Of a DNA stretch of 64,000 nucleotides, positions 16,101 to 55,824 are shown piece by piece. This stretch comes from Isoetes taiwanensis (Eukaryota > Streptophyta > Lycopodiopsida > Isoetales > Isoetaceae). The position numbers and the translations under genes were made by a program. The stretch's first letter is position 1. The number at the start of each line of letters is the position of its first letter. The notes under the pieces were generated by a model that saw only the letters and a program-made list of their open reading frames with translations, ran no database searches and had not been told where the DNA came from. The DNA is taken from NCBI GenBank assembly GCA_021234155.1, contig JAJEKV010000112.1, positions 1,699,287 through 1,763,286 on the forward strand, written 5' to 3'.

Positions 16101-16251
16101 ATACCATTGCTACCATTACCAGGTACAAGAAAATATTTACTGAAGTCTCATTTACAAATACAATTCCACTATTGCGTTGAACACAAAGTTGCATGCTTAT
16201 CCTGGGATGGAGAGTTAGATGTGCTAACTAGTCAATTGCATAACATCTTAG

Positions 16252-17774
16252 ATGATTCTGCAAGGGAAATATTTATACCACAGAGAGCCAGAAAGGGTTT
16301 ACCATGCAAATCCTGGTTTGATCAAGATTGCCAGATGGCCAAAGCAAACTAGAAAAGAAGTGATGCAACCCAGAAGGCAGTACAAACGAGTAGTGCATAA
16401 TAAGAAGAGATTGTTTATAAAGAATAAACAACTTCTTTGCTGGCGTTATTTGGAGGAGCCAAAGCTTTTTGCGAACGGTCTTAAGAGACACAAAGAAGAA
16501 GCCATACCTCTGGCAGTGCAGGATTTGTGGCAGCATGTAGTAAATTTGTATCATAATGCTGAGATACCAGTTGAAGAAGATAACAGAAAATCAGATTTGG
16601 TGATCACAACTGAAGAAATAGCAGCAGGCATCTCTTCATTAGCGAATGGCAACGCACAGGATCATATGGGCTTGTGTGTAGAACATTTGAAATGGGCATG
16701 CCCTACAATTCATCCCCTTTTGATAAAAATGTTTAATATGGCAGTAGCACATGGGTTCCCATTAGATTGGTGTCAGAATAGGGTGGTTCCAGTATATAAA
16801 GGTGGCATGAGAAAGGATGTCAACAATTATCGAACTATTTTGGTTAGTAGCTTGTTCTAAAAACTCTTTTCCACAATTCTAGAGAAGAAGATGAGTGTTT
16901 GGGCAGAATATAATCATAAACGGGTAGAGGCACAGGCTGGTTTTAGAGCAGGAAGATCTACCTTAGATCATTTGCTAGTATTGAAGACGACATTCGATCA
17001 TGTAAAAGGTTCAACAAAACCGGCCTATATGACAATTGTAGACTTCAAAAAAGTCTTCGATAGGGTGCCGAGAGACCAACTATAGGAGAGATTGAAAAAG
17101 TTAGATGTGCCACAGGATATCAGAGAGGCGGTCAGGGTGCTTTATAAAAAAGTGTTAGTACAACTATCTCAACCGTTTTCCTTGAGCATCTCAGATTGTA
17201 TAGAAAGTAATATTGGGGTTAAGCAGGGATGCCCGCTATCCCCCACGTTATTTGGTTCGTTCATTGACGGCTTGGAAGAATGGCATCATGATAATTGCCC
17301 TTGGGGGGATGCATGGATATGTGATTCAATTGTTAATATATGATGATGATGTAGTCATCTTTGCAGGCTCTATAAAAACACATGCAAAAGCATTTGGATG
17401 GATTGGCAGCCTTCTGTGAACAAACAGGTATGCAGTTAAATCTGGAGAAAACAAGTATCATGACAGTAGGAGTATTGAAGCAAGAACCCGTTTTCAGATA
17501 TAAAGGGAGTGTGGTGGATATGTGTGATTTATACAAATACCTAGGTTTTGTTTTTAGCAGGAACCACAGATGGAATGCATGTATTAGTCAACGGGTTGAT
17601 GGAGGACACAAAGCTTTGTATGCACTTCAAAGTATGTGTAGGAGATCACATCTTAGGTCTTGGCATCTTAAGGTAAGGCTCTTTCAGTCTTTGGTAATGT
17701 CGTACTATATGGATGTGAGATTTGGGGGGCAAGTCTCCCACAATGCTTGTGGGAGGACATTGAGCAAATATTAA
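16252..17774 (+). pseudogene. LINE-1 reverse transcriptase domain (catalytic box reads YDDD)
   Basis: RT blocks in order: VVPVYKGGMRKDVNNYRTI near 16785, AQAGFRAGRSTLDHLL near 16930, DFKKVFDRVPRDQL near 17043, GVKQGCPLSPTLF near 17215, LIYDDDVVIF near 17338 and LNLEKTSIMTVG near 17440. The expected (Y/F)ADD box is YDDD here. Stops at 16858 and 17083 and a frameshift near 17330 make it non-functional. Confidence 0.8.
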
Positions 17775-18012
17775 AGAAGTTCCTAAGATTAGAATTAGGT
17801 GTTAAATCTCAAACACCATATCCCATGATGTTGGCAGAGAGTGGGCTTATGTCTCTAGAGGGGGAAGCACTTCTTATATGTATTCTTTATATTAAGAAGG
17901 TACAGGACATGGTCTAAGACTTCCGCATAAAGCTTTGATGGATAGTAAAGAGAAAGGGTTGTTCAAGGATGTCATGAAATGGCTTGATAAATGGGATATG
18001 ACCTAGGACGAA

Positions 18013-18534
18013 GTGTCTTTAGTGGACTCAGATTTGAGAACATGGCTATCTTCAAGAATTCATAGGAAGATGTGGTCACAACCAAAGACTAAGATGATTT
18101 TATATAAGCAGAATATTAATCCTAAACTAGAACAAGCAGGTCATTTGAGTAGGCACACTATATGTAGGATGCGTTTGAGTTCACATTATTTGAGGATTGA
18201 GGTGGGAAGATGGGGTCATATTGTTCCAAGAGACCAAAGATATTGTCAAATATGTGATACAGATCAGGTGGAAGATGAGGATCATGCATTACTCCGATGC
18301 AAAGCATATGAGATGTTGTGTGATGAATATGGAATTTACTTTGATGATCTTCAAACACTTTTTGCCCTAGATGGTGACATTCTAGGGAAATATCTGATAG
18401 AATTCCTTAGCTACAGGGAGTCTTGCATGGATGCTCTTCGAGTAATTGATATGGTAGACTTAGACAATGTGAGCGAGAGCGAGGAGCTAGATGAGGATTC
18501 AGAAACTCATCTATTATTTTATGATGATGTTTAA
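18013..18534 (+). pseudogene. LINE-1 C-terminal Cys/His region
   Basis: A 173-codon frame after the RT, separated from it by stops. It carries the pattern C-x2-C-x8-H-x4-C (CQICDTDQVEDEDHALLRC), a zinc-knuckle-like element common at the C-terminus of many LINE polyproteins. The tail is acidic (Glu/Asp/Ser) and ends at TAA 18532-18534. Confidence 0.65.
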
Positions 18535-23160: not shown

Positions 23161-25535
23161 ATAGAATAGAATATATTTTTTATCGTCCACAGAGACCAAT
23201 TAGCCTATGGGACCCAAACAAAAAGAGAGCAGTAAGCGTATTACTGTTAGGATTAAAAATCCCTTTCCCCGAAGGGTTTTCGAGGGAAAAACCTTAGCAG
23301 TAATAATGCTGGTACACTGTACAATTGTATAGGACAATTTAGTACTGTCCCAGAGGACACAACTGAGTCCGCGTATGCATGATCTCATGGAGGTATGACC
23401 CCAACAAGCCCACAGACGCCATATTCAATAACTCATGCAGCGGCTGGTCAGTCACAACTATCCGAACATACCATGCTCAGATATAGGCAAACGCTGGGCA
23501 GATCTGAAGGGCATGACATTCATCTTCAATGGCGTCCTGGTGGCAATACTGATAAAGCCTATCCTCTCGTGCTTCCCGAGTCCAACGCGCTGTCTCAATG
23601 CAGAGACAATGTGCACCCTTGCGAATGGAAGCTATAAGTCTGCGCTTCTTCATGGGCAAATGGGTGCACAAGTACTAGTGCGGGCCTCTCGTGAGCATAG
23701 GATTGACTTACTGCTAATAGTATGCCATCTTAACTTGTGTCAGAGCATTTGCATCCCAGAGCTTGCGAAGGAAACTAGCATCTAGGTACAGCTTTAGTGC
23801 ATTGTGATCCTTCTTTGTCCATACTTGTACGCATCTTATTGCTTGTACATCCCAACATGAGAACCACTGAGTTTGCTTGTCCTTCCAAGCAGGCTTTGAG
23901 GCGTTGGGGACCCATTGCTACGGCGAAAGCAAGGTTTTGCAAATGTGTATCGCCCATAGCGGCCACCTTCTGGAAGTAAATAATATCGCGTTCCAATGCA
24001 GCCCTTTGAAGGGGTAGAAAACCTGTCTCCTGGAGTAGGATGTGGTATGGAACTGTGGACTTTACCCCAAGGGCTCGTGCCAAGAAGGCTTTCTGCACCT
24101 GCTCGAGGTCATTCCAGGTGGTGAGGGATATCACCAGACCCCATACCTCTACTTTGTACAGGAGAACCGGCTCGACTAAGGCCCTAAACAGGTGTGACTG
24201 GTGGCCCCAGGCATACAGTGCTTTCCAACCCGCCGTGACATGCAACCTGATGGCAGCATCCCAGTGAGTGGTAGTAGAGAACTCGATCCCCAAATACTTG
24301 TAGGTCGGAGCCACCTCCACATCTTGTCCTTGGTAAGTGAATGAGAGAAGCCTTGGCTGATGGGATGACGAAACTAGCAACACCCTAGTTTTGGCCAAGT
24401 TAACTCGCATGCTAGTGAATTGGCAAAAAGTGTCAAGAGCATCTAGGTGATGTTGCATGTCCTCTGGAGTATAGGCCAGGAGGTCTACATCGTCAGCATA
24501 TATGAATTGCCGGATTATGTGGTGCATGAGATGGGCGCGTGCACCTCTGTGCTAAGAAAGCCAGTCTTCCAGCTGTAGGCCAAAGAGTGTGGGGGAAAGG
24601 GGGCAACCCTGACACACTCCAATATTACTGACTACCGGCTGCCTTGATGATGTGAGACGTCATGAGCATGCCTCGTATAGCCTGTATATTGCGTTCTGCA
24701 AGTCCACGGGGGTCCCTAGCTGCCGCAATCTGTCCCATGACTTGTCCCGGTGCACTGTGTCAAAAGCTTTTGTGAAATCCACGAAACAACAGTACAAGTT
24801 TTGCTGGCGATTCCTGCTATCCTCAATCAGCATGCATAGAGTGAAGATATGGTCAATGGTGGAATGCCCGGACCGGAAGCCTGCATGTGTCAGAGCATGC
24901 ACCTTTGCCTCTTCTGCCCATATTGTCAGCCGCTGCTCAAGAATGCCAGCCAACAGTTTTGCAAAGAGAGAACTGACTATAATAGTGATAATTGGCTGGG
25001 CATTGAGGGTCACCTGCCTTGTATATAGGCACAACTCTACTAGTGGTCCACTGCGGAGGGAAGCCTTCTTGCAATACTTTATTGAATAGTGCCGTCAGGA
25101 CAGGCACCATTGGAGGCCCAGCCCACTTCAAAAGTTCTGCCTGCATGCCATCTAAATCTGCTGCCTTCCCATTAGCTAGGTGTTGCAGGCCCATGATGAC
25201 ATCCCCCTCTCTGATGACCAGTGCCAGACCCATCTGTGGAGGCACTGTTTCCCGGCCCCCGAGCAGATCGTAAAGCTGTTGCAAATACTGCACCTATTGC
25301 TCCGAGGTGATGTTCCCTGTGGTTGTATAGCCTTGCTCAATACCTTTCTCCAGAATGTCCTGGGATGCCGATCCAGGAGACCGAATATCTGTTGCTGGTG
25401 CTCTATGAGGTATCTAGCTTTATTGTTCTTGAGGAAGGAGTGGCATAGAGTAGAAAGCTTGCGCATGAAGATGTATTGACAACAACTGCAATAAATTGTC
25501 ATGATATTCCTTAATCTCGACAGATCCAATACGTC
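23160..25535 (-). mobile_element. LINE-2: 5'-truncated non-LTR retrotransposon
   Basis: Minus strand, from a linker just before the RT to a 3' tail of TTCTA repeats at 23160-23175. RT blocks: MQAELLKWAGPPMVP near 25150, AGFRSGHSTIDHIF near 24870, CFVDFTKAFDTVHRD near 24780 and an intact QFIYADDVDLLAY near 24500, then KTRVLLVSS and KYLGIEFSTT. The C-terminal segment near 23530-23600 has the Cys/His knuckle. The RT is split into frames 25293-24937, 25034-24660 and 24527-23775. Endonuclease and ORF1 are missing. It belongs to the same family as LINE-3, -4 and -5. Confidence 0.88.
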
Positions 25536-26097: not shown

Positions 26098-26545
26098 CTT
26101 GTATAAAGTAAAACACACCAAGCTATATTACGTCTCAAAAAAAGAAATTGCACTATGTTCACATCTAATGTGTGCTGATATGTTTACATAAGCACTTAGT
26201 GAGAAGCCATTATCTGAAACATCGAATAGCTTTGGGAATTACACTAGCTCTACTATGAATACACTCATAGGAGGGAGCTCGGGTTTTTTCATTTTGCTTC
26301 CCACAAAAGGCTTTTTTTACCTTGGCTAGCTAGAGATCAACTCTGCAGGGGGGACATAAGTCATACATTATACTTTTGATCTCAACCTCGAAGGTACATG
26401 CTACTTATTTTGTTTTACAAAGAGTTCAAGATTGCAGGGGATGTTCTCATGTATAATATTTATATACGTGAACAACCTTTATCCTTTGCCTATTATAGCT
26501 CAAAGGCTTTTGCCTTTAGAGCCCTCATTGTATACAGTGCATGCT

Positions 26546-26570
26546 CTCGCGGACGTTAAAATCTCTCTAT
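26546..26570 (+). mobile_element. LINE 3'-end relic next to a microsatellite
   Basis: CGCGGACGTTAAAATCTCTC matches the conserved 3' terminus of the LINE family (GTGGACG-TAAAAA before the TTCTA tail in LINE-2, -4, -5). It leads directly into the CTAC/CTAT microsatellite. Confidence 0.55.
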
Positions 26571-26770
<200 letters not shown>

Positions 26771-27829
26771 CTCTCTTCATGTATTTTATTATTAACTTTG
26801 GAATTAACTTACGCTCTCTTTTTCTCTCTGTCTTGCTGCGTCTCTTTCTTCCTTGCATTGTGTGTATAGTCGTGCCTTCCAGACCTTGGATGTTACTGCC
26901 GCTTGATAGGTATGTGCTGCCTGTGTCTGACAGAATCGAAATAGTATAAGGATGGAGGAATTGTCAAACCAAAACTAGACTCGCAACCAGGTGCTGGTTG
27001 AGGGGCCTTGCTAAACTGGGCTGGGCAAATAATGACTGTGCATGCAATAGTTGGTATGCCTACTTTGAACTAAAGCAAATCACCCAGCCTTAAGATTGGA
27101 TGCTATCTAAATTCAAGATAGCTGCAAGTAGGGAAACAGCTAGGCAGCATCCTCGCTTTGATATTTAACAAAATCCAAGGCTGACGAAATCGATGGTTGT
27201 CTAAATTGATTCCAGGCAAAATTGAAGCTGCAGTGATTGACAAAATTGAAATTTGTCAAAGATAAAGCTTGGCAGAATCGTGACTTCCTGGCCTGGCTAA
27301 AGTGGAGCTTGGCAAAACTTTTGCTAAAGGAACCAACAAGATGGAAAGATAGATATTGACAGAGCTGTATCTGGTGAGATCGTGATTGTTTGAACTGAAG
27401 GGCTTGATGCTGGAGGACAATGGCACTTAGGAAAAGACGTTGGATATCTAAAACACTTTACATCTAGAGACTTGGATCATTGGCTGCACTTCATGTTAGC
27501 CAGACATATATTGTTGGAATTAATAGCAATTATACCTTCTTGGGAAGGTATCCTAACCATGAACATAATTTCATATTGCCTTGTACAAAAATATAAATAC
27601 CAAGAATTTTCAAATAAAAAGTAAAAAGTCAAAGATTTGTGATATATTTGAGCTTATGTTTTGCCATAGGCATTTGAGTTTTAGACCATGTTCAAAGAAC
27701 CTTTTACAAATGTACTGTTGACAACTTGGATTTGTTTGAATATGATCAAAATAAAGTTAACTAATAACCCTGGAAAACTTTGAAGACAACCAACATGCAA
27801 TTCTTATAATAGCTCTCTAACAATGCTAC
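26771..27829. other. Non-coding stretch
   Basis: No gene recognised. Several loosely similar TTGGCAAAA/CTGGC words occur between 26980 and 27340, but without a clean period. Confidence 0.45.
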
Positions 27830-36944: not shown

Positions 36945-37946
36945 TTAAAGAGATGAAAAATGGCTATCCTCCTGTATTGTTTGCGTAGAGTTGCAATGCC
37001 TCTTGAGCTTCTCAAGTAGCTTCCTCAAGTGTTGGGCATGTTCGTCCAAGGACTTGATGTAGACCAAAATATCATCAAAGAAAACTATGATGATTGTGTC
37101 TACAAACTCGCGAAAAACGTCGTTCATGCGTCTCATGAATGTTGCTGGGGCGTTGGACAACCCAAATGGCATCACTGTGAACTCCTAGTGGCCATATCTC
37201 ATTTTGAATGCAGTTTTATAAATGTCTTTCTCTTTGATCCTGATTTGGTGGTAGCCTGACCTCAAGTCAATTTTGGAGAAGACCTTTGCACCTTGGAGTG
37301 GATCCATAAAGTCGTCTGATTGGGGCAACGCGTACTTGTTCTTGATGGTGTGCTTGTTCAATTGACGATAGTCAATGCACATTCTCAGACTTCCATCCTT
37401 CTTCTTGACAAATAGGATTGGCACCCCGAACAGGGAGACACTAGGTCTCATAAACCCTAGGTCTAGCAACTCCTGCAATCGCTTCTTCAATTCTGTCAAC
37501 TCCTGAGGTGTCATTCTGTAAGGTGTCTTACTTGTGGGTTTAGTCCCTGGTTCAAATGCTATCTCACACTCGACTCCCCTGTAAGGTGGGAGTTGTTTGA
37601 TCTCATCCGAGAATAAATCATGGAATTCCTTCACTAGCTTGGGTATCTGCTTCAGCAGCTTGTTCAACGTTTTATCCTCCTCATCTTCCTCTGTTTCTAG
37701 CTCCTCAACTTCGAGCTTAAAGACATAGGCCACTTGCTCCTTCTTTATGTATCTAAGTAACTTCTTACTAGACATGCATTGCATAATTGGGATGACTTCT
37801 TTACCTATTATCTCAATGACTTTGCCATTTGGCGCCGTTAAGGTCATTTTCCGCTTCCCGCAATCAATCACAGCCCCAGCCAGGCCAAGGTATTCTATGC
37901 CTATGATCAAGTCATACTTGCTAATATTCATGACATCTGCTCCCAT
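36945..37946 (-). pseudogene. Ty3/gypsy reverse transcriptase (Gypsy-1 pol), one nonsense codon
   Basis: A single minus-strand frame from 37946 to 36945 broken only by a TAG at about 37184 (after KMRYGH, where a Tyr codon is expected). RT blocks: [69 protein letters not shown] and FFDDILVYIKSLDEH (the FxDD box). The frame before it is the protease-RT linker. After LLEKLKRH the match ends near 36995, so RNase H and integrase are gone from this copy. Confidence 0.85.
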
Positions 37947-37947
37947 T

Positions 37948-38340
37948 TCAATGTTGATACCTGGAGAGCCTATGGCGAATTGATCCTTTTCCCGCTATGT
38001 ATCGAATTGCTCCACTTGTCAACACAACAAGCCTGGGCTTGGACTTCAAAGGTTTCAGCTTCAATAACTCTACCATCATTGGCGAAGCAAAATTATGGGT
38101 GCTCCCCATGTCTACCAACACTATGAAGGATTTGGCTTTGACTTTCTCTATTGTTGAGATGACCTGATATTGACTCTCGGCATTCTCGAAGTCAATGGCA
38201 GCAAAGATGTGGCACTCAACCTGGATATAGTCGCACCTGTCTTCCTCGTCGTTCTCCGGGGGTGTCTCCCATCCTCCTAGCTCTACTAGTGCCACATTCA
38301 TCACAAAAGGACAGTTGTGTGTCCGATGTCGCGGTTGGAA
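37948..38340 (-). pseudogene. Gypsy-1 aspartic protease and gag C-terminus
   Basis: The frame 38304-37948 carries IVLVDMGSTHNFAS, the retroviral-type protease active-site loop. The usual D-S/T-G triplet reads D-M-G. Just upstream is RCFQPRHRTHNCPF, a worn zinc knuckle of gag. A frameshift near 37980 separates protease from pol (the chain resumes as [19 protein letters not shown]). Confidence 0.7.
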
Positions 38341-38967
38341 GCACCTATCATGTCTCTTCTCCTTCGAATGGAATGCAAGAATTGCTTCACTGCTTTGGAA
38401 TAGTTTGAACTACCTGCTTGCTCTTTGTCCTTGGAGCTGACCTGCTTCTTGTCCTGCTTTCCAAATCTGCCTCCGAAGGCAGCTCCTATTGAGTCATCAT
38501 CTGTAGTATGTTGCTGTAGGCCTCGATGTCGAATAATGACTGCCCCGTGCAGGTGTGGGATTCTCAGATGCTGACGGGGAAGTCTTGAGTTTCCCGATTG
38601 ATGAAGTCATCGAGATGGGGCTGTTGGCGCAGAAGGTGTAGGAGCTCGTCCATCCTGTATCCTCGATCTCTGCACTCTGGAGGATTCTTGATGTCGTGCA
38701 GCAGGAGGTACTCCTAGCCTTCAACCATTATCGGGATTAAGCTGGTGATGCCTAACCCTAGTGGGGCAGCTGTCCTTGTCATCCCTAGGCCCTCATCGAA
38801 GCCCTAAAATTCTTGCTCTGCTTGCTGCTGCTCTTGGATTGGGTCGACATCGATGAATCCTCGATGCCATAGCCGTGTCTGCCTTCTTCTTTGTCCTCAT
38901 GTTTTGAGCCTTCATATTCTAAGAGCAGCTGCTCTTCTGCTGTGGAGGCAGGGCGTTCTATGTTCAT
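38341..38967 (-). pseudogene. Gypsy-1 gag-like region, multiple stops
   Basis: An ATG at 38967 opens an acidic/basic N-terminus (MNIERPASTAEEQLLLEYEG) of 60 codons. Further pieces in other frames include CRDRGYRMDELLHLLRQQP and QSLFDIEAYSNILQMM. Position before the knuckle and protease suggests gag, but I see no clear gag domain. It begins only 15 bp after the stop of the ORF at 38983-39372. Confidence 0.45.
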
Positions 38968-38982
38968 TGGCTGAATAGAGGG

Positions 38983-39372
38983 TTACCCTATTTGAGTTTG
39001 AGCTCTATGGGACAAGAAGATGGCTACAACAGCAATATACGAGAAATATATCTTTCTGTTTATAAATATGGTCATGTAGTCTGGCATGCGAGCAGCTCTA
39101 TTTTCTAAGTATTTGGAAATGTTTGAGACATCGCTCAGTGCGATTTGAAGAGCTATCCTAGGTGCAAAATATCCTATGCATGGAGGAAACTCTACTAAGG
39201 AAGGGCCTACGTTAGCTTGGAACTCTCGCATGATCTCTTGGTAATATAGTGTGGCATTTATGGTGGCATCTACATCAATTTCTTTCTGGAAGATAGCAAA
39301 GACAGAGTTGATGTTGGCGTCTGCCACATGAGTAGTGGCACTGTAGCGTCGCCTGAGGGAAGAAGTGGCCAT
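38983..39372 (-). CDS. Uncharacterised ORF, possible highly diverged histone H3 / CENH3-like protein
   Basis: A 129-codon frame from the ATG at 39372. It has the outline of an H3-type histone fold by eye: FQK at 28-30 (H3 YQK), QEI at 45-47 (H3 REI), a long loop with PP at 63-64 then I (plant CENH3 PPQI), ALQ-x-A at 74-78 (H3 ALQEA), and R-x2-R-MP at 92-97 (H3 RVTIMP) before a hydrophobic/basic end. About seven residues of helix 2 are missing, and a hydrophobic tail follows. These matches are in the twilight zone. Support comes from the upstream module, which resembles that of the H3-like gene at 40084-40488. Other reading: an unrelated retroelement ORF. Confidence 0.35.
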   Translation of the reverse strand: MATSSLRRRYSATTHVADANINSVFAIFQKEIDVDATINATLYYQEIMREFQANVGPSLVEFPPCIGYFAPRIALQIALSDVSNISKYLENRAARMPDYMTIFINRKIYFSYIAVVAIFLSHRAQTQIG

Positions 39373-39427
39373 GATGCTGATGTGAATGGGTTCAACAAAC
39401 AAATATGCAAGCGTCTCTATGAGCAAG

Positions 39428-39493
39428 AAAATCGCCTTAGAGTGAGGAGTGAAACTGTAGTTTGTAAATGAGGGTTATGGATATATTTATAGG
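39428..39493 (-). promoter_or_regulatory. TATA box and shared 11-bp element of the 38983-39372 ORF
   Basis: On the minus strand, CCTATAAATATAT lies at 39493-39481, about 110 bp before the ATG. AAGGCGATTTT lies at 39438-39428, where a 5' UTR would be. Both recur at similar spacing before the H3-like frame at 40488. The telo-box-like TTAGGGTT is just upstream of the TATA. Confidence 0.5.
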
Positions 39494-39674
39494 CAGAACC
39501 CTAATTTGTGAAATTTTTAGGTTTTGGATATATCTATCGCTTTGAGTTCTAACTAGGTATTTTATAGGTAGTCTAGGGTTGTAAACACTTAGAGGACTTC
39601 CTAATGATCCTATTGCAACAAATTTCATCTAATTTGGAGGTGGTTTAAGTGTTTTGTGGCTATTTAATTCGGAC

Positions 39675-39744
39675 CACTCACATAGTGCGCGAGAGGCTCG
39701 AGCTAAATTTTAGCTAAGGGTCTGGCCGCACTCTGTGAGGGGTG
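39675..39744. repeat. Imperfect palindrome P1 (~70 bp)
   Basis: Begins CACTCACATAGTGCGC and ends CCGCACTCTGTGAGG, with GCTAAATTTTAGC at its centre. The arms pair as CTCACA/TGTGAG and AGTGCG/CGCACT. First of four similar copies. Confidence 0.85.
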
Positions 39745-39872: not shown

Positions 39873-39943
39873 CACTCACACAATCTATGAGAGGGCCAAG
39901 CTAAATTTTAATTAAGGCCCTGAGCGCACTCTGTGAGGGGTAG
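39873..39943. repeat. Imperfect palindrome P2 (~70 bp)
   Basis: Same design as P1: CACTCACACA...CTAAATTTTAATTA...GCGCACTCTGTGAGGGG. Starts 198 bp after P1. Confidence 0.85.
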
Positions 39944-40083: not shown

Positions 40084-40488
40084 TTAATAGTCTTCCTTTA
40101 TAGATCTGGTCAGCTTCATATCTCTAGGCATACAAGTGACTCTTTTCACATGAAGAGCACATGCTAGAGAGTCTTCAAAATGCTGCACCAACTTCTGCTC
40201 CACTGCTTCCTGCAATACGAGCAACATGTCATATATTACTCACTTCTCCTTCTCGAATTCTGGATTCTCCTGTTGATCAGGATCCTGTTGGTGACCCTGT
40301 TGGTCCTGATCTTGCTGCTCGTGCTCCTGCTGGTTCTCGGGGTTTAGTTAATCCGAATTTGGGTTTTGGGATTCTTCATTTCTGGCTCGTTCTCGAGGCT
40401 CCCTCGCCTTCTGTTCGGCACCGAGGACTTGGACCCTAATCGATCCGTCATCCATAATAACCCTGGCAGTCTGTTTGGTGCGTGCCAT
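40084..40488 (-). pseudogene. Divergent histone H3-derived gene: H3 N-terminus and C-terminus, rewritten middle, two in-frame stops
   Basis: One minus-strand frame of 134 codons plus stop, close to H3 length (136 with Met). It starts MARTKQTAR, the exact first nine residues of H3. Codons 92-134 read [15 protein letters not shown], then C, A, H and KRVT-x-MP-x-D...L-x-R-x-I. By hand, 23 of 43 positions match canonical H3 without a gap, and codon numbers equal mature H3 numbering (C110, H113, R116, D123, L126, I130, which build the H3-H3' four-helix bundle). Codons 10-83 are unlike H3: acidic, then Gln/Asp/Glu-rich (ENQQEHEQQDQDQQ). TAA at codon 47 and TGA at codon 83 interrupt the frame. In another frame, PREPAGARAAR near 40309 echoes H3 PRKQLATKAAR, so frameshifts or a deletion may explain the middle. 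It has its own TATA and telo-box. A spliced or readthrough product cannot be excluded; a decayed gene is simplest. Confidence 0.75.
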
Positions 40489-40522: not shown

Positions 40523-40620
40523 AAAAATCGCCTTGTTGATCGGAGCGCAGCAAGTTGGAGGAGTATGGTGAGAATGAAGAACCCTAAAGGTCTATTTATA
40601 GGTTTGGGGGTTTTAGGGTT
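40523..40620 (-). promoter_or_regulatory. TATA box, telo-box and shared 11-bp element of the H3-like gene
   Basis: On the minus strand: AAACCCTAAAA (telo-box, about 40620-40610), CCTATAAATAGA (TATA, 40602-40591), then AAGGCGATTTT (40534-40524), and the ATG at 40488. Telo-boxes are known in promoters of plant histone and translation genes. The order TATA - 11-bp word - ATG repeats at the neighbouring ORF. Confidence 0.55.
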
Positions 40621-40701: not shown

Positions 40702-40771
40702 CACTCGCACAGTGCGCGGAAGGGCCAAGTGAAATTTTAGCTTGGGGCCCTGACGCACTTTATGAGGGGTC
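40702..40771. repeat. Imperfect palindrome P3 (~70 bp)
   Basis: CACTCGCACAGTGCGCGG...TGAAATTTTAGC...GACGCACTTTATGAGGGG. Third copy, about 100 bp upstream of the TATA box of the H3-like gene. Confidence 0.8.
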
Positions 40772-40912: not shown

Positions 40913-40981
40913 CACTCACACAATGCATGGGAGCCTCGAGCTAAATTTTAGCTAAGGGTCCAGGTGCACACTGTGAGGTGT
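40913..40981. repeat. Imperfect palindrome P4 (~70 bp)
   Basis: CACTCACACAATGCATGGG...GCTAAATTTTAGC...GTGCACACTGTGAGG. Starts 211 bp after P3, close to the P1-P2 spacing (198 bp). Confidence 0.85.
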
Positions 40982-41205: not shown

Positions 41206-42955
41206 GATCATTGCTCTAATATCGCTGTGACGTCCCCTGCCCCATCTACGATGCTCCCATCGTATCAGAAGCTGGAGTTCATCCCTCTGGCAACACAAGC
41301 TGACAAAGGCGGTCCACCTGACACCAATCCCTTACTACCTGGCAAGGAATCGATGGGGAAGAATGGATGTGTCATTCATCTCGTCTTCCCTCGGGGCCAT
41401 CCTAGCTGCGGAAGCGTAAGTAAACATGAGCACATGATATCAAATACACATAGCTCCACCTCGAAGGGTGGCTCACCATAGCATACATCTGTAAGAACAT
41501 CAATATCATCAACATGGAAGAAGTCCTACCCAAGGCTCAGACTCAGGGGGAATGGATTGATGGCTTAGATCTCCAGAAGTCATTGCAGACAGAATTCATG
41601 GCAATTGAATTGGGCTGGCATAGAAAGATGGCTGTTGGGTAGTCCTCTCCATCTGCCCCTCCTGTGCATACTTTGCAGAATAGGCTGATAGTCTTGGGAC
41701 TTGACCATAGCCTGTCGGGTGCATAGCCAAGGGGGCTATTCCTGGGTTGCATCTCCCCAGTCCCGATGAGGCAAGAGGAGATCACTCCCTCCAAAGGCAT
41801 GCATGCCCATCACAGGCAGCTAGAGAGCCACTGCTCGTGTACGACTTCAACCCCATTGAAGGTGACGCATCACCCAAGGGGTGTCGAGCCCATGCCTTGT
41901 CCACTCGCAGTGGCAAACCATTAGGCCTAGCCCGCTAAGATCCCTGGTAGGCTTTACACACCAGAGGGATAAATCTGTATTGGGACATGTCCTCCTTATC
42001 TGCCAGTCTAGCCTCGCCACCCACAGCTAGGCGAGCTCTTATGCAAAGGCCGCATTAATTGGAAATTAATGAGGCTATCTAGATACATCAACTACTAAGG
42101 CTTTCAGGGTCTCTACCCCTCTTCGCAATACATAGGAGTGCACATAGAATAGAACATCACCATCCATAGAACTGAAATATAAAGTAACATCTAATCTATC
42201 TACCTAAACATGCATGGTTAGGTTCCTTTGTTAGGGCTTGTGATCTCAGAATCTACAAGGTCTCTAAGGCTAAACTAACATGCTAATCCAGCTCATTGTC
42301 GGACTAAAAGTCGGCATTGCATAACAGAGTTGCTATTTACCTGAATCTTGGCTTGCTCTAGCTCCTCGCAAAGTGTCCACGCTTCTGTTTGGGTCGAAGG
42401 CGGCTGAATCAGGAAGAGCCGTTGTGCAAAGCCAGCTTAGCGGCATCTGACAATACAAAATAGCGCTAGCACTTGGCTGGAATGGCTCAAGGAAGTTGAA
42501 ATGCGAAAAGGAAAAAGGTTTAAGATTTTCCTTCTAGTTCTTTTTACACGACCTTTTAGAATTAGGGCTAAAAGCTCATGTGGGGTTTTGCCATATGGCA
42601 AAGGGCACATGTTTTTAGATATGCGCAACATAAGAAGTTGCCCTCTGGGTGCAACCCTTTACAGTTTCCAAGTACACTAGAAACGTGTGCCAGGCGATGC
42701 CGGGCATTAGTCCTGGATGTGTGATGGCATTTATGTGCTTTAGTTGTAGTTATGTCATGAATGTGCATATAGGAGCTCCTCCCGTCGTGCCGATGGTGGC
42801 GAACATGAATGTGTAAACAAATGCTTACCATGTCTCACACGCGCGACTCAGGTCTACCAACAATAATGTTATACTTTCTTAGAAACTCGAGAAGCTCGTA
42901 ATCACACTACATCATGTGGGATCGATGCCCAAGCCTTAAACTATCTCCCATCACA
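41206..42955 (-). mobile_element. Candidate 5' LTR (1.73 kb) with primer-binding site, Gypsy-1
   Basis: Read on the minus strand, the segment 42955-41226 begins TGTGATGGGAG and ends GGACGTCACA (TG...CA). Directly after it (41225-41206) comes GCGATATTAGAGCAATGATC, similar to the plant Met-tRNA primer-binding site. Strand and position fit the gag-protease-RT at 38967-36945. The partner LTR is not in the window, so the call rests on the ends and the PBS only. About 2.2 kb with the two H3-like frames and four palindromes lies between PBS and gag. Confidence 0.4.
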
Positions 42956-43543: not shown

Positions 43544-44862
43544 CCATCCCCCTCCTACGACGGCAACGTTTCCTCGGAGCTGGGACCGGAGTACTCAAAC
43601 TTGGCTTGTTCGGGTAATGTCGGTGAAACTCCTCAATTTTGTCAGGCGTATTAGTCAGATTCTCGGCAGGCTCCCAGGTTCCATCACTTGGCGAGTAACC
43701 TTCCCAATCGACAAAGTAATACAATCGTCGACGAAGAAACTTGGAGTCCCGAATCTCTTGAACCTCGAACTCCTCATGATCATCAATTTCGACTGGTGGT
43801 GGCGGCGGACGCGATCCGGGAAAGTGTTAAGTATGTAGGGCTCCAATAGAGAAACATGAAATACTGGATGGAGCCGAACAGCTGGAGAGAGCTCGAGCCG
43901 GAATGCCACATTGCTGATTTGAGCCATGATCCGATAAGGACCAAGGCAACGATAGTCAAGTTTGTTGCAAGGATTGCAAGGACATGAGGTAGGAAGGTCC
44001 CTATGAAGAATCCAGACAAGATCACCAACGTGAAATTTAGGAGTTTCTCGATGCAAGTCAGCATAATGCTTATAACGTTCTTATGCTCGATGAAGATGAT
44101 GCTGAAGATCTGATTGAAGAGCCTGGAGTTTTTTAAGTCGAGACTCGGCACTAGGATTGACAGAGTCACCGCCAACGACACTAAGGGACCAACGAGGATG
44201 CTGACCAAAGTTCAGAAGGAATGGAGTCTAGTCAGTGGAGGCATGTATTGAGTTATTATAGGCAAACTTAGCTAATGGAAGATAATCGACCCAATCATCC
44301 TGCTGATAACTGATAAAGCACCTTAAATATTGCTCCAGAGTCTGATTAGTGCACTCCACCTGCCCATTACTTTCTGGATGATGACCAGATGTCAGTGAGC
44401 GGTCAATATGCAATAACTCCAAAAGCCGCTTCCAAAAACCTGCGACGAACTGTGGTCCACGATCACTGATGATAGTATCGGGCAAGCCGTGAAGTCTGAC
44501 TACTTCATGAAGAAGAAGATCTGTTGTTCCTTCTCTGGTGATGGTGACATTGCAGGGAATAAAATGAGCCATCTTAGAGAAACGATCAATAATAACCATG
44601 ATGGCATCATAACCCCGAGAGACAAGCAACTCCGGAATAAAATCTATAGAAATGCTCTTCCAAGGTCCATCTGGTACTGGCAGTGGCTGAAGAAGGCCAT
44701 GAGGAAGATGCCTTGGAACCTTTGCGCGACAGCAAATGTCACAGGATCGAATAAAAGCTTCGAAGAGCGACGAAGCCCAGGCCACCAATACTCTCGACTA
44801 ATAAGTTCAAGAGTCTTGGCTACTCCAAAGTGTCCGATTATAGGTGAATCATGGCTTCCACC
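43544..44862 (-). pseudogene. Ty3/gypsy chromovirus integrase with C-terminal chromodomain (Gypsy-2)
   Basis: Minus-strand pieces in order: SPIIGHFGVAKTLELI (zinc-binding H), FIRSCDICCRAK (CC of the HHCC zinc finger), the integrase core with SISIDFIPELL, ISDRGPQFVAGFWKRL and HPESNGQVECTNQTLEQYL (D-D-E), the GPY/F region with LGPYRIMAQISNVAFRLELS, and a chromodomain (EFEVQEIRDSKF, LYYFVDWEGYSPSDGTWEPA). Frameshifts near 44788, 44228 and 43790 break it. Chromodomains steer integration towards marked histone H3. Everything 5' of the integrase is missing: the match stops at 44862, where another gene's intron begins. Confidence 0.9.
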
Positions 44863-46440: not shown

Positions 46441-47565
46441 AACCTCTATGACCCTTCAAGCTTCATTTGGGTTGAGAAAAACCGGGCAACTTCACTCTTT
46501 GTATTTTCATCTTTCATTTCTGGAAGACCTGCAACTCGTAAGTTAAGCGCCCGTTTCTGTCTCTCCTGCTGCTCCAAGATATCATTCATACATGAGTTCA
46601 ATTTATTTACCACGTCTTTAATAGATTCAACGGCTGCGACCAATTCCTCGGATTCCCTTGCCTTCATATTGTCATTTTCCTCCCTAAGGTTTCGAGTTTC
46701 TCGTTTCAGTTCCATTTTCAAAGTAATAAACTCTCCTTCAATGATCTATTATCCTGTTGCAATTCAGATAAGGAGGTAGAGATTTAGCGTAAAGCACCTA
46801 CCATTTCCAAATCCTTGTTTGCTACCTCCTTTCGCATTTGCTCTAGAGTTTCCATTGGTTTCAACATTACTAAGTTCAAATTAACCAGGAGCCTACCAAT
46901 ATCATGTTGTTGCTGCCCAAGCTATTGGAGCAACCCGGATCCAAGCATCCCCTCTGTGTGAATTATGTCGGCATTTAAAAACATGTTTTCAGATTGCTTC
47001 AGGCTTGGGCTAATGCATCCATCTATGGCAGGCTCCAAATCTCCAGACTTAATGTTCGCTTCCTGCAAGTCTTCAGCAGCAACTACCTTGGAGCCCAAGC
47101 TATTGGAACAACTCGGATCCAAGCATCCTCCTGTATGAATTATTCCAGCATTTAGAAACATGTTTTCAGATTGCTTCAGGCTTGGGATAATGCAACCATC
47201 TATGGCAGACTCCAAATCTCCAGACTCATTGTCCGCTTCCTGCAAGTCTTCAGCAGCTATTACCTGGGAGCCCATTTAGATTCCTTGCTGATGATGGTGA
47301 TGCGCTCTTCAACACTGTTCTGACTCCATTCCGACTTGTTAAGCCAGTTCTGACCTCCTTCCCGATGTCTGTTCCAACCTGTATGGAGCCGTCTATGGCA
47401 GTCTCTATTTTGGCTTCAGTGACAACAGGGGCCACAAACGTGACCTCCTTGCTCATAATAGCATCCAATAAAATATTAAAGGTGGTCGTTGTTGCAGGAA
47501 CAGTTCCTGCTGGTGCTCCATCACCAGATTCAGAAAGGACTTTTTTTTGACCTAGTTTGCTTCCT
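46441..47565 (-). pseudogene. LINE ORF1 fragment (coiled coil plus RNA-binding domain) with internal tandem repeat
   Basis: On the minus strand, an N-terminal Thr/Val-rich piece ([20 protein letters not shown] at about 47545) is followed by a shifted frame holding two 54-residue tandem repeats (AAEDLQEADNESGDLESAID and AAEDLQEANIKSGDLEPAID, 47275-46922). Further on come a coiled coil (MKMELKRETRNLREENDNMK) and RQKRALNLRVAGLPEMKDEN, the L1-ORF1p-type RNA-binding domain. The fragment ends near 46446 without endonuclease or RT. It is closer to LINE-1 ORF1 (ERKQRALNIRIGG) than to LINE-4 ORF1. Confidence 0.65.
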
Positions 47566-47566
47566 T

Positions 47567-47678
<112 letters not shown>

Positions 47679-47679
47679 T

Positions 47680-48517
47680 GGACTATGGAGACGCTCTACA
47701 CGAGCAAGGCTGGGTCCACGACCATTAACCCTGACTAAGCACCACAGCGATAAGGGATTCTGTGCAAAACATCTAATTCTGATGCAGTGGCTGGTGTTCA
47801 AGGTGTGGGATTCTGACATAACTATGGCCACAACTAGAATAGGCCTTAGACATGGAGTGTAAATCTATGCTATGACCTAGTTTTAAGATTTCGGTGGAGT
47901 TGGTAAGTCTACATGCCGGAATCAAATGACTGTATAGTTTACTTTCAGTTGTAGTAGTGTCTTATTTCTATGTATTTAGCTAAACGAATATATAGATTTT
48001 CTAAAAGCTCATACAATACAGTCAATTTTGCCATGACTTAAGGATATTTGTGCTTTTCTAATAGGGCAGACTTATGATTTCTAGTTATGCTGGCCATTGG
48101 CAGAAGCACAGTGATATATCATTGCTTTTGAATCCCTCGGGAATATCTTTAGCCCTTGTCAAATACTGTAATGACTGAGTGCTAATTATAGACATTAAGG
48201 TGGTCATTTCCACATGCGTATGCATAATGCCTAGTGTTAACATGCAGAAACTAGGCTGGATGTTACCGTGCTTGTGGCCTTTAAAAATTTGATAGACAAT
48301 GGTCTATGACATGTGTACAACATAATGGTGCATAGTTAATTAGGAATTGGGTCTAATTTGAAACATAGATTTGACTAGGTTATGAGCTAAAATACTTGAT
48401 GATTGAGAACTCAATGCCATCATGGATTGATTTCCTAGTATAGAGATAAGACTACCGCAGGGATTGACCTGGTTATATGTCATGGCTAGTTGGCTATTGT
48501 TGCTAAGGCTAGCGTGG
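47680..48517 (-). repeat. Large dispersed repeat R2, copy B (inverted relative to copy A)
   Basis: Reverse complement of 20071-20750 plus 21805-22070, without the 1054-bp block of copy A. It is cut on one side by the (GA)n tract and ends on the other at GCTAGCGTGG, where a T-run starts. Confidence 0.8.
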
Positions 48518-51140: not shown

Positions 51141-51484
51141 AAACATAGAATATAATAGAATAGAATAGAGTTTTTATCGTCCACGAAGACCAATTGGTCT
51201 ATGGGACCCAAACAGAAGGCGCAGCAAGCGTATTACTGTCCGGGGTAAAAAAAACCCCGTCCCGCCCTAAAGGGTTGTTTGGGGGAAAAACCGTCTCAAG
51301 AATAGATTTGCTATCAAACTCTACAAATACAAATTAAAATACAAATAGAGACAGAAATATGTACATGTATCAGTTAAGTGCCCGAGGACCAAGTTGATCT
51401 CGGCGATCCATGATCTCTTGAATGTATGGCCCAACCTCCGTACCGAGTTCGTGCTCAGCATCTTATGCAGAGGCTGGCCAGGAC

Positions 51485-52200
51485 GGACCAGCTCATCATA
51501 GCATATCCGAATGTTATTATATGCCGGACAACTCTGAAGGGTATGGCATTCGTCTTCCACAGCTCCAACCTTGCAGCGTTGACAAAGTCTCTCCTGACGC
51601 AGCTCCCCAACCCCTCTCCCTGTCTCGATCCGGAGATGGTGTGCACCTGTGCGGATAGAGGAAATGGATCTGCGTATTTTCATGGGTAGATGAGTGCACA
51701 TGTAGCATTGCGGGCCCCGCTCCAATGCATGTGGCGTCGATAATGTGCCGTCTTGACATGTTCAAGGGTGCTAGCATCCTATAGCACCCTATTGCCTGAG
51801 GCTGCAATGATCTGCCTTCGTTTGCACTTGGATGCACCCATGCTCCTGCACATTCCATCTGGCCAGCCACTAAGCTCTCTTTTCCCACCAGCAGGCCCCA
51901 TTGCCACGATGTAAGCGAGGTTAGGGAGACGAGTATCGTCCATGCTGACCACCTTCTGGAAATAGACGATGTGTCTGTCAAGAGCCCACCTTTGAAGAGG
52001 CAAGTAACCTGTTTCCTGCAGCAGTATCTGGTATGAAACTGTGGACTTCACCCCCAGGGCCCATGCCAAGAAAGCTTTCTCCACCTGCTCCAAGTCATTC
52101 CAAGTGGCAGAGGAAATCACCAGCCTCCAGACCTCGACCCCGTACAAAAGCACAGGTTCTACTAGCACCTTGAATAGGTGTGATTGGTGGGTCCAATCAT
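51485..52200 (-). pseudogene. LINE-4 C-terminal region with Cys/His knuckle
   Basis: ALVEPVLLYG-type segment (VLVEPVLLYGVEVWRLVISS, 52351-51779 frame), then LALGVKSTVSYQILLQETGY, and in another frame RLCQRCKVGAVEDECHTLQS (C-x2-C...H-x4-C). The same order is seen in LINE-2 and LINE-5. Confidence 0.75.
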
Positions 52201-52219
52201 ATAGCTCTGGCTTGTGGCT

Positions 52220-53720
52220 ATTGTTCCCCATTGCATAGAGTACCTTCCAACCTACTGCGGCTCGCAGCCGGATGGAATTGTCCCAGTTCATGGCCGACGG
52301 GAATTCTATCCAAATATTTGTAAGCGGACACCACTTCAATATTTTGGCCACGATAAGTGAGGATTGGAGGCCTTGGCTGGCGTGCGGATGATACCAGAAC
52401 CACCTTGATTTTGGCTAAGTTGGCACGCATGTCAGTCACCAGAAAAAATGTGTCCAGAGTATCGAGATGGCGTTGCATGTCTGCCTGAATGTGTGCTAGG
52501 AAGTCCACATCATCAGCATAGATCAGCTGCCTGATGATCTGGTGTAGGAGGTGAGCCCCAGTGCCTCCATTATCAGCGAGCCATCTCTCCAGCTGATCAA
52601 TATACAGGCCAAATAGTGTGGGAGAGATAGGGCACCACTAGCGGACCCCGATACTGCTCTCAAATGGTTGGCCTGCTGTTTGCACCCGGCCGATGCATGT
52701 CTCATATAGCTTGTACACCACGTTCTGCAGTTCGACAGGGATGTCTAGCTGCTGCAATCTTGCCCACAGCTTTTCCCGAGGCACCGTATCAAAAGCCTTG
52801 GCGAAGTCTACGAAGCAGCAATACATATCTTGCCTACGGTTCCTGCTGTCCTCAACCAGAGTCCGCAGCATGAAGATATGATCTATGGTTGAGTGCCTCG
52901 GCCTGAATCCTGCCTGTGTGAGTGCCTGCACTCTTGCTGCATCTACCCATCCTGTCAACTGCCGCTCGAGGATCCCGCCGAGGAGCTTTGCAAACACTGA
53001 GTTGATCATGATGGTCCATTAATTGGCCAGGCAATGCGGATCTCTTGCTTGTAGATTGGGACAACCCTGCTAGTGGTCCATTGCGGGAGGGAGGGAAACC
53101 TTCCCACAATGCCTTGTTGAACATGTCGGTCAGTACCGATGCCATGGATGCAGTATGGTCAATACAGTCAGTACGGTCTGTCCTGCCCACTTGAGTAACT
53201 CTGCCTGCATGCCATCAATGTCTGGTACTTTTCTATTGGCTAGACGTTGCAGCCCCTGTGCTACCTCCGCCTCTGTTATTTCCAGTACTGGGCCCTGCTG
53301 AGGGGGGGAGGGGGTAATGCTGCCCGTGCACCCTCAGGTTGTAGAGCTGCTGCAGGTAATAGCCCCCACTGGTCTGGAGTGATGTTTCCTGTGGGCGACA
53401 TTGGCCTCCTGAGCACTCTCCACTAGAATGTCCTGGGATGACGTTCCAGGAGAAAGAACATTTTTTGTTGACGAGCCGCAATGTACCTGGCCTTTCTAGC
53501 CTTAAGGAAAGCGCGTGCTTCACTGCATCCAAGCGTAGAGTAGGGTCTATAACTTGGCGGCCAGCATTTGCGTTCTTTGCACTCGGCATCGAACCACTGG
53601 TTACGCGGAAAGGCCGTAGCCCTCGAGGTTTGCCTGGGGCGATTTCTCCCAAAACACCTCTCTACAGCAGCCCTGAGGACGTCATGAGCTTGCCTCCCTG
53701 CTGCTCCAGCGTTGAGCATT
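52220..53720 (-). pseudogene. LINE-4 linker and reverse transcriptase
   Basis: The linker has VERCFGRNRPRQTSRATAFP and ARKARYIAARQQKMFFLLER. RT blocks: LTQAGFRPRHSTIDHIFMLR and CFVDFAKAFDTVPREK (53009-52638), then LIYADDVDFLAH near 52505 and NLAKIKVVLVSSARQP. The catalytic YADD is present. Frames change at least four times. Confidence 0.85.
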
Positions 53721-53835
53721 ATAAGATGCTTGTCAGATCCTCCGTAAGCATCTGGGAGTAAATAGGAGCGCGCTCATAGTCCAGTCTGAGCTAGGGCATA
53801 CGAGGAGGTATTGGACAGGCGTCTGGAGCAACATG

Positions 53836-54620
53836 TCAAGCCAGCTGCAAGTAGAGTGGCAGGTGGTCTGAGTCCATTTCTTCATCCCTACCAGCTGTTC
53901 CCACTCGAAAATGTTTGACGAGATGCATGTCCTGCTCGGCCACCAAAACATAGTCTACCATGCTGGACCCACCTCCCTGGTTCTCCTGCCTGCAAGTGTG
54001 CTGGTTGGAGGACGACCACTGTGCTAGTCCATTGCAAATCACAAGGCCAAAGATACTGCAAAGCAGTAGCAACTGCCTCCCAGAGCGCGAGACCTGAATG
54101 TTAGCTGGTGTCCGTGGCCAAGCTCCTGCTAAAGGGCTCAGCAGCAACACATCATCTGCGAGAGGGTCAAACCTCATCGGTTGTTCCATGCCAGTGCGGG
54201 CATTGAAGTCTCCAACAAGCATGACCCTACCCTTCTGCTTGTGCTGCTGTATGTCATCGTATAGATCGACGTAGGGCTCCAACATATCCACACCCGGATG
54301 GTTGTGATAGAAGTTGCTTTCGGCATGTGGGAAGTAGCAGGCCGCCACAAAGAGAGGGCTACCACTGCAATTCTGCATACGCATCCACATGTACCTATTA
54401 TGTTTATCTGTCTTGTACATGGAAACTGATTGTGCCAGGACTGTCCGGTAGTAGCAGGCGACCCCTCCGTGCCATCACTTTCTCGTGCATTCATTGAAGA
54501 CGGAGTAGCAATGTTATCCTGGCAAGTCGGGTAGTCTATGTCAAGCATGCTCCCATGTTTCCATAAGGAAAATGAAGACAGGTAGCAATGTTATCCTGGC
54601 AAGTCGGATAGTCTATGTCA
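53836..54620 (-). pseudogene. LINE-4 endonuclease domain
   Basis: The frame 54420-53836 is open for 194 codons: VAACYFPHAESNFYHNHPG, VMLVGDFNARTGMEQ, LVICNGLAQWSSS, SMVDYVLVAEQDMHLVKHF and MDSDHLPLYLQLA, with the catalytic Asp-His (SDH). The N-terminal part before 54420 is in another frame. It is the best-preserved endonuclease in the window. Confidence 0.85.
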
Positions 54621-54660
54621 ACCATGCTCCCATGTTTCCATAAGGAAAATGAGGTCCATA
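54507..54660. repeat. 77-bp tandem duplication in LINE-4
   Basis: AGCAATGTTATCCTGGCAAG starts at 54507 and again at 54584; both copies end with CCATAAGGAAAATGA. It lies at the start of the endonuclease and helps destroy the frame. Confidence 0.9.
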
Positions 54661-54670
54661 TCGGCGGCAA

Positions 54671-55824
54671 CTAAGTTGAGACTGTCTCCCTTCTACCATG
54701 GGAAGTCCCGACATTTCCAAGGGACCATGCGCAGGCACAATCCCTATTTGCTGACAGGAGCTGCAGCATAGGTTTGGCGGTGGTAGCACAAGGGATGGTG
54801 GTGGAGGTGGAGGCAGCATGTGGCCTGTTGGCAGTGGCAGATGAGGCCATTGTAGCAGGATATGCAGCTGGAGTCGCGGTAGAAGAGCCTCGAGAGTTTG
54901 AGGTGCCTGCATCAGTATTTGATGTCCTGAAGATCTGCATCCTTCCCCGGACCAGCCCTGCTGCTCCTCCCTGTTTGCGGACACTCTTAACTTTCTCTAA
55001 CTCATGCCTGCGGTCCTCCTGATGTGCCGGAGTCAGATCCCGGTCCATGTACATGGCAGTCCCCTTCAACTGCATGCCTTGGCACAGGATGGCTACTCGC
55101 TCTTGCGCGTCCCTGACTGTGAAGATGACTACCCGAGGACGGTCAGGGCACTGGGCCCCATGGCGTGTCGCCCTAACAATGTGTACGGGCGTGTGGAATG
55201 TCATCCGGCCAGGATTCATGTTTGGAGCCGGCTGATGAGGTGCTCTCCTGCCTCCTCTGTCAAGCCGCGCACCACCATATTGTGGCTCATGTATCTCCGC
55301 TCCTACAACTTTGAGGTGGTTGGGCTCGTGGTGGCTGTTGTGGCATTGTACTGTTTTCGATGTGTGGGGCATGGGTTGTGGCCTGTGGTGGGGTGATGGT
55401 GGCATGGGGCAGCTTGGTGATGCAGCGGTGGGCCGCCCTGGTTGGCATCTTGTAGGCTGCCAGGTATGTGGGTCTATCATGTCCCGTGTTGTGGCCTCTG
55501 CTCTTTGTAGTCAGGAGCTCAGCTCCTGCTGGAATTGCTGCTGCCTTGCCAATTCATGTGTGCATCGCCGCAATTATTCATGGGCTTCCGCATGAAGGCC
55601 CTTGCCTTGCTGGGCGACGGTTGCCCGAAGCTCCTGCAACTCTTGGTCTCGTGCAGCGCTCTCAACTCTGACTGACTCGCCTCAAAGGCAGTCTGCATGC
55701 TTCGCATGGTGGTGGCGGCCTCCGCGACCTCTGATTGGAGGTGGGAGATGGTTGCTCTTGTCTCCTGATCAGCACGCTGCCTATCTTGTGCCATGGTCTC
55801 TATGATGGTGGAGAGGGAGTCCAC
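54671..55824 (-). pseudogene. LINE-4 ORF1 (coiled coil, Pro-rich linker, RNA-binding domain)
   Basis: The frame 55824-55519 starts with an ATG and reads as coiled coil (MDSLSTIIETMAQDRQRADQ). The frame 55480-54671 has a His/Pro-rich linker, then RVVIFTVRDAQERVAILCQG, GTAMYMDRDLTPAHQEDRRH and ELEKVKSVRKQGG, the pattern of the L1-ORF1p RRM-like and C-terminal domains. A Ser/Thr/Ala-rich tail follows. It would coat LINE RNA. One frameshift lies between 55480 and 55519. Confidence 0.7.

Follow-up and report, generated by a model that had tools for sequence, protein, structure and literature searches.

The histone H3-like frame at 40084-40488 is very probably a dead copy of the first open reading frame (ORF1) of an old Ty3/gypsy LTR retrotransposon, here called family A, and this copy of the element is truncated past its reverse transcriptase (RT). 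The window, as we call the whole stretch of 64,000 nucleotides analysed, comes from Isoetes taiwanensis (contig JAJEKV010000112.1). Our high confidence covers the identity and the history of the element in the window, not a role in chromatin.

The frame lies on the minus strand and is read from 40488 to 40084. It opens with MARTKQTAR (40462-40488, minus strand), that is, H3 residues 1-8 with the initiator Met, and continues with 37 codons, a TAA (40350-40348), 35 codons, a TGA (40242-40240), 51 codons and a stop. The preliminary description, made from the letters alone, had recognised this exact, in-frame H3 start, and it was equally right that the middle is acidic, Gln-rich coding sequence containing TAA and TGA. 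The C-terminal H3 match that it claimed holds in a profile search: PF00125 against the last 51 codons alone gave an E-value of 4.2e-9 and 37.2 bits, the cut-off being 26.4, and the same codons matched solved H3 chains at 3.3e-10, H3 being the closest chains. Since this C-terminal match and the exact nonamer stand in the same frame at a near-canonical distance, chance is excluded as the source of the H3 likeness. Both ends had been called authentic H3, and this stands; the extent of the match had been set too short, because the homology already begins with a 19-residue stretch that the relatives identify as the end of alpha-1, loop 1 and the way into alpha-2. A six-frame scan of the 64-kb window (ORFs of at least 20 aa, five histone queries) gave no second histone match below E 1, and a protein search with the window frame gave 3 candidates, none of them a match.

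Using the 405-base frame as query, a genome search returned 742 first-look candidates, the best 40 of which were scored, with at least 43 matches; among the matches listed, 36 cover only offset 228 onward. Such a genome-wide search for copies had been proposed earlier, and it is what revealed the retrotransposon carrying ORF1. Query offsets 1-227 and 228-405 are matched separately in the relatives, 717 nt apart in C1028, and the gaps found between the two halves were 717, 572, 208 and 208 nt. In C1025 (L038) the match runs through both halves, with a deletion of its own. Furthermore, the EF of alpha-1 is at codon 76 in the window copy and at codons 296-326 in L035, L039 and L042, which points to an internal deletion of about 660-750 nt that fused the tail to alpha-1 in the window's ORF1. 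The middle that had appeared to be rewritten is, judged against these relatives, a deletion scar.

From the frame, the profile match and the relatives, the interval 40084-40488 (minus strand) can be described as the ORF1 remnant of a long-tailed H3 with an internal deletion and two premature stops. It consists of MARTKQTAR, kept in part across the relatives, of the acidic, Gln-rich start of the tail with its TAA (40262-40461, minus strand) up to the deletion junction at about 40262/40261, where the relatives split the query, and of the H3 core from the end of alpha-1 to alpha-3 (40084-40261, minus strand; PF00125, H3 chains and relatives), with the TGA near loop 1 and the natural stop at the end. 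Internally deleted and stop-containing, the window copy is not the working rebuilt H3 variant that had been considered.

Ten relatives combined give an ORF1 made of MARTKQTAR, a tail of about 260-280 codons and a divergent H3 core. After MARTKQTAR the tail continues with VVMEDGSTSVQVLAAEQK and then with acidic, Gln-rich, basic, Ser/Asp and Pro-rich stretches, and alphaN follows the ATG at a distance of 268 codon lengths in L039 and of 289 in L042. The L042 core lies inside a 197-codon open stretch (REIGHFQRSYGLLIPRVAFARLTREILQEF and onward); it aligned with H3 chains over residues 34-131 (E 2.4e-19). None of the ten family A relatives has an unbroken full-length ORF1, the breaks being of various kinds, and in L041, L043 and L044 the ORF1 start is absent from the stretch examined. 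A further family A-type fragment, at L009:1052-1258, adjoins LTR-like sequence.

These relatives bear on the idea of a working mini-H3 from which the middle is spliced out as a 252-nt intron. The best donor and acceptor, scored with a plant weight matrix, do fall in phase where the visible H3 matches stop and resume; nevertheless, the supposed acceptor lies inside alpha-2 coding sequence and is missing from the fragment at L009:1052-1258, and the supposed intron is ORF1 tail and core in the relatives. Splicing, which had been suggested for the frame, is hardly credible on these grounds. In plants, introns are present in H3.3 genes and lacking in H3.1 genes, according to the accessible part of PMC4357034, and this is not decisive here.

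The surroundings of the frame agree with the retrotransposon reading, since an LTR end, a primer-binding-site-like sequence, ORF1, a protease (PR) and an RT follow one another in this order on one strand, the primer site being degenerate and the LTR partial. The 5' LTR (41226-42246, minus strand), whose extent was set by homology to other loci, has its 3' end CGTCACA at 41232-41226. Its part at 41353-42246 is 72% identical to L022 over 927 nt, a patch near 41523-41688 recurs in 12 loci and falls, in L011 and L026, within an LTR proven by pairing, and the LTR region of the window is 63-66% alike to two LTRs and to a stretch of L034 preceding a primer site. Directly past the LTR end, the primer-binding site (41213-41225, minus strand; by eye) shares 10 of 13 bases with GTGGTATCAGAGC of the sister elements. 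On the other side of ORF1 there are a retroviral-type protease region (37987-38346, minus strand) with 47% amino acid identity to the sister element L014 and a weak Pfam match to RVP_2 (0.049), and a Ty3/gypsy RT (36996-37964, minus strand) with 63% amino acid identity to L014 and a Pfam match to RVT_1 at 3.8e-29. Only the RT and part of the PR remain, and no gag, RNase H, integrase or 3' LTR of the window element was found; we therefore take the element as truncated.

Between ORF1 and the protease there is a 129-codon ORF (38986-39372, minus strand), at the place where the sister elements have their ORF2; at the DNA level, 38979-39689 is 57% identical to L021. The ORF itself had no Pfam match and no solved relative. 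It was rejected as a second histone-like gene, as it had no Pfam or PDB match and its structure model (pLDDT 38) was uninformative, and the ORF2 profile, at -1.5 bits, gave no support for taking it as ORF2. A piece adjoining it scored 3.0 bits against the same profile, a score that 4 of 300 shuffle sets reached.

The regions upstream of ORF1 and of the 129-codon ORF are alike, with 300 nt alignable at 65% and two 69-nt palindromes in each, found by sequence comparison: an imperfect one at 40702-40770 and a second at 40913-40981 ahead of ORF1, and those at 39675-39743 and 39873-39941 ahead of the 129-codon ORF. TATA-like boxes, identified by eye, accompany the palindromes ahead of both ORFs; that of ORF1 is CTATAAATAG (40592-40601, minus strand), about 105 nt ahead of the ATG. 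The four palindromes are possibly an internal promoter or a hairpin element. The family A fragment in L009 likewise has palindromes on either side, at about 890-950 and 1385-1475, which differ from these (by eye).

Other repeats are present in the window. Beside the H3 element, at 43658-44860 (minus strand), there is an integrase with SH3-like and chromodomain parts from another, more distant Ty3/gypsy element. Long simple repeats at 26432-26869 and 47250-47831 give (YLSI)n and (SL)n ORFs, and ORFs at about 15700-18500 (plus strand), 23800-25500 (minus strand) and 51300-55500 (minus strand) resemble, by eye, pieces of elements with a non-LTR reverse transcriptase.

The preliminary description had also pointed to an H3-tail start on a non-H3 body, and this turned out to be real and kept in the family. 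K4 is present in all eight family A starts examined and the exact MARTKQTAR in four of the eight; none of the eight has a lysine at the K9 place. For codons 2-25, pS was 0.50 and pN 0.10 in six of these copies (the other two, L037 and L040, whose frame shifts after codon 7, being excluded), and for the C-terminal block pS was 0.344 and pN 0.074 (11 copies, 55 pairs; five of the 11 copies have a stop in the block, and stop or missing codons were skipped). With pS exceeding pN, K4 found in all eight starts and the nonamer intact in half of them, the tip of the H3 tail, joined to a foreign tail, appears to have been kept in family A.

It had been suggested that the frame is an H3 gene that decayed through compensating frameshifts. 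As a host H3 gene or a processed copy of one, unrelated to any element, it would explain the H3 nature of MARTKQTAR and of the C-terminus and the presence of stops. However, the frame is surrounded in order by the LTR end, the primer-site-like sequence, the PR and the RT, and its non-H3 tail is common to the relatives, which refutes this explanation; moreover, the L042 core is identical to host H3 at only 47 of 96 residues and yet the family A copies look constrained. We regard such an origin as extremely improbable, the window copy being an internally deleted retrotransposon ORF1. An identification as CENH3 was rejected too. Family A resembles CENH3 in the LLIP that follows alphaN and in its long, divergent tail, but the loop-1 insertion is absent, one family A and three family B cores being of H3 length, and the L042 core is nearer to host H3 (the 47 of 96 residues given above) than to a hand-entered Arabidopsis CENH3 sequence (40 of 98).

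The retrotransposon is better preserved in a group of sister elements, family B, in which an ORF1 of about 440 residues lies between the primer-binding site and gag and ends with an H3 core. In nine of the 17 family B loci ORF1 is open from stop to stop over 459-486 codons, and nine of the 17 have the exact primer-binding site TGGTATCAGAGC upstream of it, the identity of the primer tRNA being our assumption. With the exception of L033, the loci (16 of the 17) have gag-pro-RT on the same strand, downstream of ORF1. The ends found in family B elements are LTRs: paired LTRs of 1.60-1.65 kb, with K80 of 0.034-0.063, bound all four elements examined together with their flanks. A target-site duplication of 5 bp, read by eye, is exact in C928 and C1034, shares four of five bases in C1056 and could not be placed in C922. 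L010 carries the Ty3 capsid (gag domain), and L019, which is the continuation of L010, carries RT, RNase H, integrase and chromodomain. One family B element (L009:1538 to L021:5295) sits within an older element of family A, immediately past the H3 fragment of the latter; among the family A relatives, the view was wide enough for their own LTRs in L022/L009 only.

The last 96 residues of the family B ORF1 are the H3 core, 83-86 of them identical to host H3 in three representatives, and PF00125 matches the L010 ORF1 at 141 bits. As in canonical plant H3 and H3.3, the core from alphaN to alpha3 is gapless. The N-terminal tail, in contrast, is replaced in the two families by about 260-360 residues, and MARTKQTAR, present in family A, occurs in none of nine family B starts; in the tail of L010, RVKHPATGG replaces ARKSAPATGG (by eye). 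The N-terminal part of the family B ORF1 comprises 316-358 residues in nine loci. It had no significant Pfam match in the three tested (best E 0.56, far below the cut-off), and a search of 5.8 billion proteins with residues 1-320 of L010 gave 4581 candidates that share short words with it, none of them a relative at E 0.01. When the whole L010 ORF1 protein was searched, the best 120 of 4456 matches covered 21-49% of it, consistent with matches to the H3 end.

Family B shares gag, PR, RT, RNase H, integrase and chromodomain with the chromoviruses (L010/L019), and is set apart from them by its ORF1 with H3, often joined by an ORF2 and, in the case of L010, by yet another ORF in the region from the primer-binding site to gag. 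ORF2 has up to about 500 codons (L032:5151-6662; L029:4600-6039), and neither these two nor the further ORF (L010:6912-7427) had a Pfam match, H3 being the only one of the parts tested between primer-binding site and gag with a significant match. Runs of at least nine A occur within 350 nt past the ORF1 stop in five of the 17 loci, and we dropped a capture of ORF1 as polyadenylated RNA, this evidence being too weak to claim it.

Regarding selection, dN/dS of the H3 core between family B copies was 0 to 0.057 where measurable, and 0.020-0.057 at dS of 0.6 to 1.2; for L010 and L014, for example, dS was 1.20 and dN 0.024. The N-terminal part of ORF1 had 0.08-0.25, and a pair of host H3 genes 0.009. 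Over the 15 usable of 32 pairs the median was 0.024 for the H3 core and 0.041 for RT, and the core had the lower ratio in 14 of the 15, L013-L014 being the pair with the higher one. The other 17 pairs were dropped for saturated H3 synonymous sites, for which no ratio is given, or for too little distance. The pairs share ten loci, so they are not independent. The copies were taken from the 150 top-scoring H3 matches, and ten of the 17 were chosen mostly because their open frames were long, a choice that biases dN downward; setting the core against RT reduces this bias but does not remove it. Read with these limits, the comparison shows the signature of strong purifying selection on the family B core, like that on RT or stronger. 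Synonymous sites are saturated between the three family B lineages, and all three keep the core.

L011 and L023 have an RT nearly equal to that of L032 and a very distant ORF1 H3; for L011 and L032, pS is 0.12 in RT and 0.80 in H3. Exchange of ORF1 and pol between elements may thus have produced mosaics.

Mobile elements with a captured H3 are already known. The available text of PMC3538342 and PMC6710886 describes fungal hAT DNA transposons with H3-like genes in Pyrenophora tritici-repentis (26 H3L copies in the reference) and in Pseudocercospora fijiensis and relatives, respectively, with hundreds of copies in P. fijiensis, all inactivated by RIP save the original gene. There, as here, a mobile element captured and multiplied H3, and the Pyrenophora H3L also has tail insertions and fully matches neither H3 nor CenH3, as far as the same part of PMC3538342 goes. 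In contrast to these DNA transposons with an H3L ORF, as portrayed in the parts available, we deal with a plant LTR retrotransposon in which H3 ends a long fusion protein and its core is apparently under purifying selection inside the element; no hAT transposase domain was found in the plus-strand frames of L010 and L019. What is new here is the other class of element, the fusion and the signs of use.

Additional ORFs (aORFs) of plant LTR retrotransposons are reviewed in PMC7264820, whose accessible part treats aORFs that resemble no sequence outside elements, as well as host sequences transduced in the manner of Bs1. The present ORF resembles them in being additional to gag and pol in an element of the Ty3/gypsy type, and differs from those described there in its recognisable, constrained domain of host type. 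The word histone does not appear in the text of this review, of the papers on the genomes of I. sinensis and I. taiwanensis (PMC8566536) or of the Retand paper (PMC11963269). In the literature searched, whose coverage leaves out most subscription journals, we found no LTR retrotransposon carrying H3.

The captured H3 could be passive cargo of no use to the element, as proposed for the fungal hAT elements. Gene capture by elements is common, H3 capture followed by inactivation has been published in fungi (PMC6710886, in the part available), and our selection was measured on copies chosen by H3 score. Against this, the family B core has the low ratios reported above at considerable dS, lower than RT in all usable pairs except one, and was kept in three lineages with saturated synonymous sites, which makes mere cargo improbable.

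As to what such use would be, plants silence elements of this kind via H3K9 methylation, and integrase chromodomains read such marks. We tentatively favour a leading role in which the element would make its own H3 variant from ORF1. The ORF1 H3 would pair with host H4 and enter nucleosomes, most usefully on the element's own DNA, and the replaced tail, in which the K9 and K27 contexts marked by silencing enzymes are missing, would help the element to escape or to shape heterochromatin. This proposal draws on constraint and tail sequence: a core constrained like RT and complete from alphaN to alpha3 is most simply explained by pairing with host H4 and entry into nucleosomes, and the loss of the K9 and K27 contexts from the tails, set beside H3K9-based silencing, suggests a self-supplied, unmarkable H3.

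About as likely as an unmarkable H3, and just as tentative, is a part for H3 in another step, either packing of the element's nucleic acid into particles or, alongside the integrase chromodomain, anchoring of the integration complex on host chromatin. ORF1 precedes gag, its family A version contains acidic and basic stretches of some length, and the L019 integrase does carry a chromodomain. For packing, however, the family B core keeps more H3 residues (the 83-86 of 96 in three representatives) than nucleic acid binding alone should need, although this is not decisive.

If the reading as an unmarkable H3 is followed to its full extent, a plant Ty3/gypsy lineage would long have depended on its own long-tailed H3 variants without K9 and K27 contexts, family A keeping the authentic K4 tail, and these would sit in nucleosomes with host H4 on the DNA of the element and set its own chromatin state against silencing. 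This wider picture we consider speculative and rather doubtful.

The elements also matter for the annotation of this genome. In the searched assembly (1,658,258,908 bases, 1110 contigs) PF00125 gave 8705 first-look candidates, the best 150 of which were scored. Fifteen of these 150 reached 164-165 bits, and the eight of them examined were all canonical H3; the other 135 were non-canonical, with 144-155 bits. All 37 examined among these 135 were of the element type; they were two hand-picked lots, 17 with their surroundings and 20 cores spread down the list. Annotators should take into account that many strong H3-like matches in the Isoetes taiwanensis genome are ORFs of elements.

Histone marks are a ground of conflict between elements and their hosts, and the present element seems to come with a histone of its own. 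Should ORF1 enter nucleosomes, its H3 with a modified tail, having evolved within an element, would be a natural experiment that separates the H3 residues needed for the nucleosome from those needed for marking, and it would make testable an escape of retrotransposons from H3K9-based silencing by means of a supplied H3.
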